From Gammaproteobacteria bacterium (GTDB taxonomy: Bacteria > Pseudomonadota > Gammaproteobacteria > Pseudomonadales > Pseudomonadaceae): a DNA stretch of 64,000 bases. The notes below the pieces were generated by a model, which saw only the letters and a program-made list of their open reading frames with translations, did no database searches and had not been told where the DNA came from. Location: contig JAAYFD010000025.1 in NCBI GenBank assembly GCA_012728415.1, positions 52,948 to 116,947 on the forward strand, read 5' to 3'. Positions 56,202 through 58,607 of this stretch are shown here, in pieces. Made by a program: the position numbers and the translations under genes. How positions within the stretch are numbered: position 1 is the first letter of the stretch; every line of letters starts with the position of its first letter.

Positions 56202-56215
56202 TTGATTCCGGTCAA
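56202..56215. promoter_or_regulatory. ANR/FNR/DNR-type box upstream of nrdD
   Basis: TTGAT-TCCG-GTCAA, one mismatch to TTGAT-N4-ATCAA. Confidence 0.7.
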
Positions 56216-56301: not shown

Positions 56302-58041
56302 ATGACCAACCAGCTCGCCAGCCATGAACAACAGCATCATCAGGTTAATGTGGCCTCATCCATCAATGAGTATCTTGAGCGCCAGGACTGGCGGGTCAAC
56401 GCCAATGCCAACCAGGGGTATTCGCTGGGCGGGATGATTCTCAATGTGGCCGGCAAGGTCACCGCCAACTACTGGCTGAACGAAATTTACAGCCCGGAAA
56501 TCGGCGCCGCCCACCGCAGCGGCGACCTGCACATTCACGATCTGGACATGCTGGCCGGCTACTGCGCCGGCTGGTCCTTACGTACATTGCTGAACGAAGG
56601 TTTCAACGGCATTCCCGGGCGTATCGAAGCCGGTCCGCCCAAGCATCTGAGCAGCGCACTGGGGCAGATGGTCAACTTTCTTGGCACCTTGCAAAACGAA
56701 TGGGCCGGCGCCCAGGCGTTCAGCTCCTTTGATACCTACCTGGCGCCCTTTGTGCGCAAGGATGCGATGCAATACCAGCAGGTGCGCCAGTGCATTCAGG
56801 AATTTATCTACAACCTGAACGTGCCTTCGCGCTGGGGTACGCAAACGCCCTTTACCAACCTGACCTTTGACTGGGTGTGCCCGGAGGACCTGCGCGAGCA
56901 GATTCCCTACATCGGCGGGGTGGAAATGCCCTTTGCCTATGGCGACCTGCAGGACGAAATGGATCTGATTAACCGCGCCTACATCGAGGTGATGCAGGCC
57001 GGTGACGGTCTGGGCCGGGTGTTTACCTTCCCGATTCCCACCTACAACATCACCAAGGACTTCCCTTGGGACAGCGAAAACGCCGACCGCCTGTTCGCCA
57101 TGACCGCCCGTTATGGCCTGCCGTACTTCCAGAACTTCATCAACTCCGACATGGAGCCCAACCAGGTGCGCTCCATGTGTTGTCGCCTGCAACTGGATGT
57201 GCGCGAGCTGCTCAAGCGCGGTGGCGGCCTGTTCGGCTCAGCCGAGCAAACCGGCTCGCTGGGCGTGGTGACCATCAACTGCGCCCGACTGGGCTATCTG
57301 TATAAAAACGACCTGCCCGGCCTGTACGCCCGTCTGGATGAACTGATGGACATGGCCCGTGACAGTCTTGAGGTCAAGCGCACCGTGATCCAGCAGCACA
57401 TTGATAACGGTCTTTACCCGTACACCAAGCGGTATCTGGGTACTCTGCGCAATCATTTCTCGACCATTGGTGTTAATGGCATGCACGAAATGCTGCGCAA
57501 CCTGACCGGTGACCGCGAAGGCATGCACACTGAGGCGGGCCGCCTGCTGGCATTGGAGATGCTGGATCACATCCGCGCCAAAATGGTGCAGTACCAGGAA
57601 GAAACCGGCCATCTGTACAACCTTGAAGCCACGCCGGCCGAAGGCACCACCTACCGCTTTGCCAAGGAAGACCAGAAACGCTTTCCGGATATCTTGCAGG
57701 CTGGTTACCCGGATGCGCCCTATTACACCAATAGCTCGCAATTGCCGGTTGGTTATACCGATGATGCCTTCGAAGCCCTTTATTTGCAGGACGAACTGCA
57801 GTGCAAATACACCGGCGGTACCGTGTTGCACCTGTACATGAATGAGCAGATTTCGTCGGTTGAGGCCTGTAAAAATCTGGTTCGGGCATCCCTTGGCCGC
57901 TTCCGTTTGCCGTATCTGACCATTACGCCAACCTTCTCCATCTGTCCGGTACACGGCTATCTGGCCGGCGAACACGAGTTTTGCCCGCAGTGTGACGAAT
58001 TGCTGGAAATCGAAATGGAAAGGGAAATGGCGCAGGCTTGA
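56302..58041 (+). CDS. nrdD: Anaerobic ribonucleoside-triphosphate reductase, catalytic body (lacks C-terminal glycyl-radical motif)
   Basis: INEYLERQDWRVNANANQGYSLGGMILNVAGKVTANYWLNEIYSPEI...; ends ...ICPVHGYLAGEHEFCPQCDELLEIEMEREMAQA* without an RVxGY motif. Confidence 0.9.
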   Translation: MTNQLASHEQQHHQVNVASSINEYLERQDWRVNANANQGYSLGGMILNVAGKVTANYWLNEIYSPEIGAAHRSGDLHIHDLDMLAGYCAGWSLRTLLNEGFNGIPGRIEAGPPKHLSSALGQMVNFLGTLQNEWAGAQAFSSFDTYLAPFVRKDAMQYQQVRQCIQEFIYNLNVPSRWGTQTPFTNLTFDWVCPEDLREQIPYIGGVEMPFAYGDLQDEMDLINRAYIEVMQAGDGLGRVFTFPIPTYNITKDFPWDSENADRLFAMTARYGLPYFQNFINSDMEPNQVRSMCCRLQLDVRELLKRGGGLFGSAEQTGSLGVVTINCARLGYLYKNDLPGLYARLDELMDMARDSLEVKRTVIQQHIDNGLYPYTKRYLGTLRNHFSTIGVNGMHEMLRNLTGDREGMHTEAGRLLALEMLDHIRAKMVQYQEETGHLYNLEATPAEGTTYRFAKEDQKRFPDILQAGYPDAPYYTNSSQLPVGYTDDAFEALYLQDELQCKYTGGTVLHLYMNEQISSVEACKNLVRASLGRFRLPYLTITPTFSICPVHGYLAGEHEFCPQCDELLEIEMEREMAQA

Positions 58042-58180
58042 TTTTGATGTGTTCGTGTGACGGCTGAATATGTTCGTGTGGCACATCCCCGCAGCAGCTG
58101 GGTTCTCATGCCAGTCGAAACATCGTGCAGATTGCACGAAGCTCGAAGCAGCGCCGGGAGATGGATGGAGCAAACCCTGC

Positions 58181-58236
58181 AACGCCATGGATGGCGTTGC
58201 GGAGCCTACATGGATGTACTTGCGGCGTGTTTGCGT
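58181..58236 (+). repeat. REP-like palindromic repeat, copy A
   Basis: AACGCCATGGATGGCGTT hairpin plus GCGGAGCCTACATGGATGTACTTGCGGCG. Confidence 0.7.
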
Positions 58237-58333
58237 AATCCATATCCCGGTGCTGCAAATACCCAGCCCGTGCCGTTGCCAACCATATAACTGCACAGGG
58301 TTTACAGCGGTTGTGGGGACAGGTGGAGCAGGG

Positions 58334-58385
58334 CTATGTCGCCAGGGATGGCGACATCAAGCCTACAGGGATGTATTCACGGCGA
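58334..58385 (+). repeat. REP-like palindromic repeat, copy B (direct orientation)
   Basis: ATGTCGCC-AGGGAT-GGCGACAT hairpin plus CAAGCCTACAGGGATGTATTCACGGCG. Confidence 0.7.
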
Positions 58386-58454
58386 CCCTGCGCAGCCCGC
58401 ACCCCAGCAACCGCAAAACACCAAAACTTTTACACACCACAAAAGGAAAACATC

Positions 58455-58607
58455 ATGAACACAACCAACCTCCCACAAGAACGTCGCCAGCGCTGTGAAG
58501 TCTGGACCCGCGTCATGGGCTACCACCGCCCGGTCAGTGCCTTTAACAAGGGCAAGCGGTCCGAGCATCGCGAGCGCACCCACTTCACCGAAAGCGCCAG
58601 CCGCTAA
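58455..58607 (+). CDS. Separate 50-aa NrdD glycyl-radical domain protein
   Basis: Below ORF-track cutoff from its own start: MNTTNLPQERRQRCEVWTRVMGYHRPVSAFNKGKRSEHRERTHFTESASR*. RVMGY...FNKGK matches the class III RNR glycyl-radical tail (E. coli RVCGYLGS...FNAGK). SD AGGA upstream; nrdG ATG 3 nt after the stop. Confidence 0.85.
   Translation: MNTTNLPQERRQRCEVWTRVMGYHRPVSAFNKGKRSEHRERTHFTESASR

Follow-up and report, generated by a model that had tools for sequence, protein, structure and literature searches.

Textbooks describe class III ribonucleotide reductase (RNR) as a single chain, lost once oxygen attacks its glycyl radical. The locus examined here raises the question of whether a class III enzyme can instead be built from two chains, with the radical carried on a small, separate protein. 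It lies in a 64,000-nucleotide stretch of DNA, which we call the window, from a member of the Pseudomonadaceae. On the plus strand, the open reading frames and sequence of the window give the order nrdD, a 413-nt gap, a 50-codon ORF (the mini-gene) and nrdG (Table 1). The original prediction, made from the sequence alone, had described a 579-codon nrdD without an RVxGY motif and, 413 bp later, a 50-codon ORF with its own Shine-Dalgarno sequence and nrdG starting 3 nt past its stop. Coordinates and profile matches confirm this layout. We consider it highly probable, on sequence grounds, that the locus encodes a two-chain class III RNR, in which NrdD supplies the catalytic barrel and a second, 50-residue chain the glycyl-radical site.

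Table 1. Features of the split nrdD locus, in window coordinates
Feature	Position	Strand	Basis or remark
FNR/ANR/DNR-type box TTGATTCCGGTCAA, upstream of nrdD	56202..56215	+	motif match; function inferred
nrdD, catalytic chain of class III RNR, 579 aa	56302..58041	+	lacks glycyl-radical loop and ATP-cone
Four-ligand zinc-site motif, complete, CPVHGYLAGEHEFCPQC, near NrdD C-terminus	57943..57993	+	sequence
Non-coding gap, 413 nt, with two copies of a short repeat (CCTACAnGGATGTA, GCCAnGGATGGC)	58042..58454	+	sequence
Shine-Dalgarno-like AAGGA of mini-gene	58443..58447	+	sequence
Mini-gene, separate glycyl-radical chain, 50 aa	58455..58607	+	profile match, conservation, selection
Predicted radical glycine, Gly22 of mini-protein, within RVMGY	58518-58520 (codon)	+	
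nrdG, radical-SAM activase, NrdG2 type, 239 aa	58611..59330	+	profile match

Two matches to the FNR/ANR/DNR-type box occur in the window, where 0.23 would be expected. The 413-nt gap showed no terminator-like site, and no intron or RNA family reached the Rfam threshold there. The repeat copies in the gap (58180-58431) have palindromic cores, and Rfam gives Ysr224 on the minus strand as a weak hit below threshold. In the closest named relatives, of Thiopseudomonas (NrdD identity 98% and 94%), nrdD is split too, and the gaps measure 483 and 227 nt. Relatives such as L003 and L012 have an N-terminal ATP-cone-like region, which the window NrdD (56302-56400) lacks; this absence suggests that allosteric activity control by ATP/dATP has probably been lost in Thiopseudomonas NrdD. 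The source genome also encodes NrdA and NrdJ (two large-subunit matches, named by eye), and class III is thus not necessarily its sole anaerobic RNR.

We compared both chains with profiles and a structure of complete NrdD. The window NrdD matches Pfam NRDD at positions 2-529 of 562 (594 bits), and the mini-protein matches positions 531-562 (35.4 bits, cut-off 26.2). The glycyl-radical motif is thus not on the NrdD chain, which stops at NRDD position 529, but on the second chain. NRDD is the only Pfam family to match the mini-protein at E values up to 1. In NCBIfam NF006126, NrdD covers 91-654 of 684 positions (1051 bits, cut-off 548) and the mini-protein 648-682. When aligned to the Thermotoga maritima NrdD structure 4COI, residues 68-566 of the window NrdD fall on 103-610 and residues 12-47 of the mini-protein on 611-646; the latter match is weak alone (E = 0.09) and its placement is exact. 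The two chains therefore tile at consecutive residues, 610 and 611, with no missing block. These data bear out two expectations of the original prediction, that the small ORF is the segment normally found at the NrdD C-terminus and that the two pieces would tile without loss. The finger-loop CCRL in SMCCRLQLD is invariant in 35 aligned NrdD sequences, the window's included, and the nrdG product matches TIGR02495 (208 bits, cut-off 131), which places a dedicated radical-SAM activase nearby.

A small glycyl-radical protein could also be purely a spare part of the GrcA/YfiD kind, with a fused NrdD elsewhere doing the work. One archaeal genome, G1006, does carry a fused NrdD alongside an unlinked mini-gene. 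However, a profile search of the source genome (assembly 90% complete) recovered no further NRDD piece and no fused NrdD, a point that the original prediction had raised. Likewise, no fused NrdD was hidden beside a split one in ten genomes searched whole, split ones included. The pure spare-part model is thereby refuted for the window, barring a fused copy in sequence absent from the assembly, and we regard it as very improbable.

AlphaFold was used to model two split pairs as one chain through in-frame stops, reading TAA as Q in L037 and TGA as W and TAA as Q in L044. Mean pLDDT was 85.1 for L037 and 84.0 for L044, with pTM of 0.79 and 0.80. In the L037 model the mini-protein core reaches pLDDT 84-92 after a linker at 61-68. 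Foldseek searches of the PDB returned class III RNRs as the top hits for both models. AlphaFold had knowledge of fused NrdD homologues, so the alignment alone leads one to expect docking; the models show that the mini-protein is compatible with NrdD and are no proof of binding.

Alternatively, stop readthrough, frameshifting or splicing, of RNA or of protein, might fuse the products of the two ORFs into a single chain. For some relatives a lone stop codon separates nrdD from a mini-gene in the same frame, and RNR genes are known to harbor inteins and introns (PMC2795772). However, across loci the distance from the nrdD stop to the mini-gene ranges from -43 to +1587 bp, with a 4-bp ATGA overlap (-4) frequent, and the mini-gene occurs in all three frames and after all three stop codons. 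It has its own ATG and usually a good Shine-Dalgarno sequence in the split loci compared, and Rfam shows no intron family in the gap here. In L214 another gene intervenes between nrdD and the mini-gene. In G922, nrdD stands alone and the mini-gene and nrdG form a pair about 95 kb away; unlinked mini-genes such as this one act in trans if at all. Joining is accordingly a most unlikely explanation: the varied gaps, frames and stops, the separate start and Shine-Dalgarno sequence, selection on the mini-gene and the unlinked copies exclude sequencing error, readthrough, frameshift, intron and intein. Separately, seven genomes (G996, G997, G1014, G1040, G1041, G1046 and G1057) have long open frames (about 990-1680 aa) in which the NRDD match is broken up; these probably reflect inteins in archaeal nrdD.

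The mini-gene core from 23 Pseudomonadaceae copies gives a pN/pS of 0.12 and a median dN/dS of 0.067, against pN/pS of 3.2 and 2.1 in the shifted frames. These values indicate strong purifying selection on the mini reading frame, and the dN/dS rejects a pseudogene reading of the mini-gene. They also bear on whether local gene decay or an assembly error has left a dead class III enzyme here. Such decay would fit a gap that contains short repeats and has grown within the genus, and a missing ATP-cone. Against it, the same split is found in other Thiopseudomonas genomes and family-wide, dN/dS is about 0.07 and nrdG is intact, and we give this explanation very little credence. A single Pseudomonadaceae locus (L020, in genome G110, which is 6% contaminated) has TAG where other copies encode the Tyr that follows the radical Gly; this in-gene stop counts against the two-chain reading.

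To what extent is the split shared by other lineages? Among 198 Pseudomonadaceae genomes, 74 had NRDD matches and 73 of these carried a split nrdD; the 74th is truncated by a contig end. An even by-family sample of Gammaproteobacteria gave 28 split, 7 fused and 3 partial among 38, and in the phylum sample many enterobacteria-like genomes carry fused NrdD. Campylobacterota were split in 59 of 75 cases (15 fused, 1 partial), and Cupriavidus necator H16 has a split nrdD on pHG1, where the small gene has 66 codons (WP_011154154). Many small archaea are split as well, and both states occur within one archaeal phylum and within the phylum of a Diapherotrites MAG. The archaeal assignment of the first of these phyla comes from SSU rRNA, for which the archaeal model scored higher in G1009 (1401 vs 1084 bits); G1013, of the same phylum, is archaeal by the same measure (759 vs 574 bits). 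When the split and fused states are placed on a quick tree of 124 NrdD bodies, a minimum of 12 changes is required, and well-supported branches force 6 of these, so on this tree nrdD has been cut or re-joined repeatedly. One row of the tree (L048) was badly trimmed, a flaw that is not expected to disturb the split clades.

These data indicate that the split is the rule across many lineages and no local oddity. The original prediction had suggested a recurrent arrangement, and the pair is indeed found across the family, the class and other phyla. Its choice of Pseudomonas aeruginosa NrdD as a fused comparison was less fortunate: this protein is probably also split, because every assessable nrdD-bearing Pseudomonadaceae genome is.

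The position of the cut was examined relative to the zinc site. At 92 split loci NrdD has all four zinc ligands. None of these 92 mini-proteins has a Cys at -5 of the EVWTR-type motif, the position of the fourth zinc ligand in fused enzymes, and 91 have a Cys directly before the motif (-1). At 23 archaeal loci, which are related and in part near-identical and so do not represent 23 independent events, NrdD has three zinc ligands and all 23 mini-proteins have the Cys at -5. Judged by these ligands, nrdD is cut at two places relative to the zinc site. In the archaeal type the site would be shared between the chains, and the -5 Cys pattern is as that arrangement predicts. The conserved split, the exact tiling, selection and this compensating zinc ligand together support the two-chain enzyme that was originally put forward. 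The -1 Cys is near-invariant in bacterial mini-proteins although the partner NrdD has a full zinc site. Diapherotrites-type archaea also encode a second NrdD-like protein, about 660 aa long and lacking the radical loop (L044 2000-3423; L196-L201), sometimes near the split nrdD; that of L044 forms one further row in the ligand table.

Mini-genes also occur without a neighboring nrdD. Two IMG/VR scans yielded 160 viral loci (L222-L381), to which ANMV-1 was added for a total of 161. At 121 of the 161, the small ORF has no NrdD body within the locus, and the body was absent from the whole record in 49 of 50 viral records, which may be fragments, so that absence is no proof. Neighbors include genes for terminase, portal, tape measure, holin, endolysin, spanin, Sak4, DUF669 SSB, RusA and helicase. 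The viral mini-proteins keep the radical-glycine motif and its flanking residues, and are matched by PHROG family 4132 (phrog_4132, unknown function), for which a function can now be proposed from the NrdD glycyl-radical motif. The ANMV-1 virus encodes a 145-aa version; tblastn against named phage records found little beyond it. Copies also lie in prophage-like regions of Campylobacterota and a gammaproteobacterium (L205, L206, L208 and L209). Two extra copies in G922 (L205, L206) and one in G958 (L208) are in prophage lysis regions, near DUF5675, endolysin and terminase-like genes, and the G463 copy (L209) is about 600 bp from a RecT gene. In the archaea G1006 (L210) and G1009 (L211), an unlinked mini-gene directly follows a rubrerythrin-like gene and is followed by a peroxiredoxin or CDGSH gene, a neighborhood that would be expected of a spare part for oxygen damage.

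The lone phage and archaeal copies suggest a replaceable radical cartridge, and free-standing mini-proteins are candidate spare parts for class III RNR. The free-standing, unlinked and phage-borne copies in these other genomes lend support, at the sequence level, to the replaceable radical subunit that had been offered as the second option for the small ORF. Phage mini-proteins might instead be decoys that occupy NrdG or NrdD and so shut down or redirect host dNTP synthesis. The lack of nrdD in 49 of the 50 viral records and the placement of some copies in lysis modules fit such a role. However, a decoy need not keep the radical-glycine motif and its flanks, yet the phage copies do, and many adjoin replication and recombination genes (Sak4, DUF669 SSB, RusA), where dNTP supply makes sense. 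We therefore consider decoys unlikely, though worth bearing in mind.

For the two-chain enzyme, we propose that the small chain would dock into the barrel at the site of the C-terminal loop in fused NrdD. NrdG would then abstract a hydrogen from Gly22 of the small chain, and the radical would pass to the finger-loop cysteine. Oxygen damage might cost only a cheap, replaceable 50-aa cartridge, because oxygen cleaves glycyl-radical proteins at the glycine. The host enzyme would draw on phage copies, and on those in archaeal oxidative-stress operons, as spare cartridges. More broadly, class III RNR may have its own spare-part system of ~50-aa glycyl-radical cartridges acting in trans: a standing radical subunit in many denitrifying proteobacteria, Campylobacterota and small archaea, and a lone protein in phages and archaeal oxidative-stress operons that keeps or restores host dNTP synthesis after oxygen damage. 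On this broader proposal we are evenly divided. A disposable radical piece, if real, would explain how bacteria that meet oxygen can afford a class III RNR. The two-chain form is probably used by many Pseudomonas relatives and Cupriavidus, and would be a minimal natural system for radical installation and transfer between chains. There is also a practical trap, as NrdD expressed without the small gene is probably a dead enzyme.

A passage in PMC2864759 states, after a 1999 study, that NrdDG of C. necator H16 is essential for complete denitrification. Since nrdD of this strain is split, a split class III enzyme is very likely functional in vivo. In the genome paper on C. metallidurans, NrdDG comprises Rmet_5137 and 5139; the intervening 5138, passed over there, is probably the small radical gene. 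Current annotation (PGAP) gives the small gene the name nrdD in genera that include Cupriavidus, Bradyrhizobium and Allochromatium; a dedicated NCBIfam model for it was not found. The P. aeruginosa literature in scope names nrdD and nrdG only. No description of a split NrdD was found in the searched literature, which covered non-subscription journals, and an earlier mention may exist; within that literature the arrangement is, as anticipated, little discussed, while automated annotation already labels the small gene.

The split enzyme shares its barrel, finger-loop CC, zinc site, RVxGY loop and NrdG partner with the fused class III NrdD of Escherichia coli, phage T4, T. maritima and Prevotella copri. 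It differs in that the radical loop is a separate gene product and, in one archaeal type, in a zinc site that would, from its ligand positions, be shared between chains. YfiD/GrcA and T4 Y06I are likewise small separate proteins that duplicate the C-terminal glycyl-radical part of an enzyme. The glycine is where oxygen cleaves glycyl-radical enzymes, and YfiD and Y06I take the place of the part that pyruvate formate-lyase (PFL) then loses (PMC8683613). They are ~14 kDa and serve PFL, whereas the mini-protein is ~6 kDa and of the NrdD type. As in GrcA, it is a small free-standing protein with an intact radical-glycine motif, RVMGY. Unlike GrcA/YfiD, it is the sole source of the glycine in most hosts; the tail duplication typical of GrcA is not seen in the source genome, which has no fused NrdD, and is present in G1006. 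Membership in GrcA/YfiD is rejected, as the domain is NRDD and there is no PFL-type glycine-radical domain. Andorfer et al. 2021 noted that spare parts had been validated for PFL only and that others may exist (PMC8683613); the loci described here, including the phage proteins of phrog_4132, are concrete candidates. The split class II RNR NrdJa/NrdJb of P. aeruginosa also divides a catalytic chain between two genes, with the C-terminal part separate (PMC9669993). That system differs in class and cofactor, and NrdJb has an IscU-like and a zinc domain with no radical residue. Finally, nrdD also lies in pieces in Aeromonas phage phiAS4 and other phages (PMC3653736). Those cases are introns, inteins or recent breakage near fused relatives, whereas the split described here is conserved, falls at a domain border and has a small piece that occurs alone in phages.
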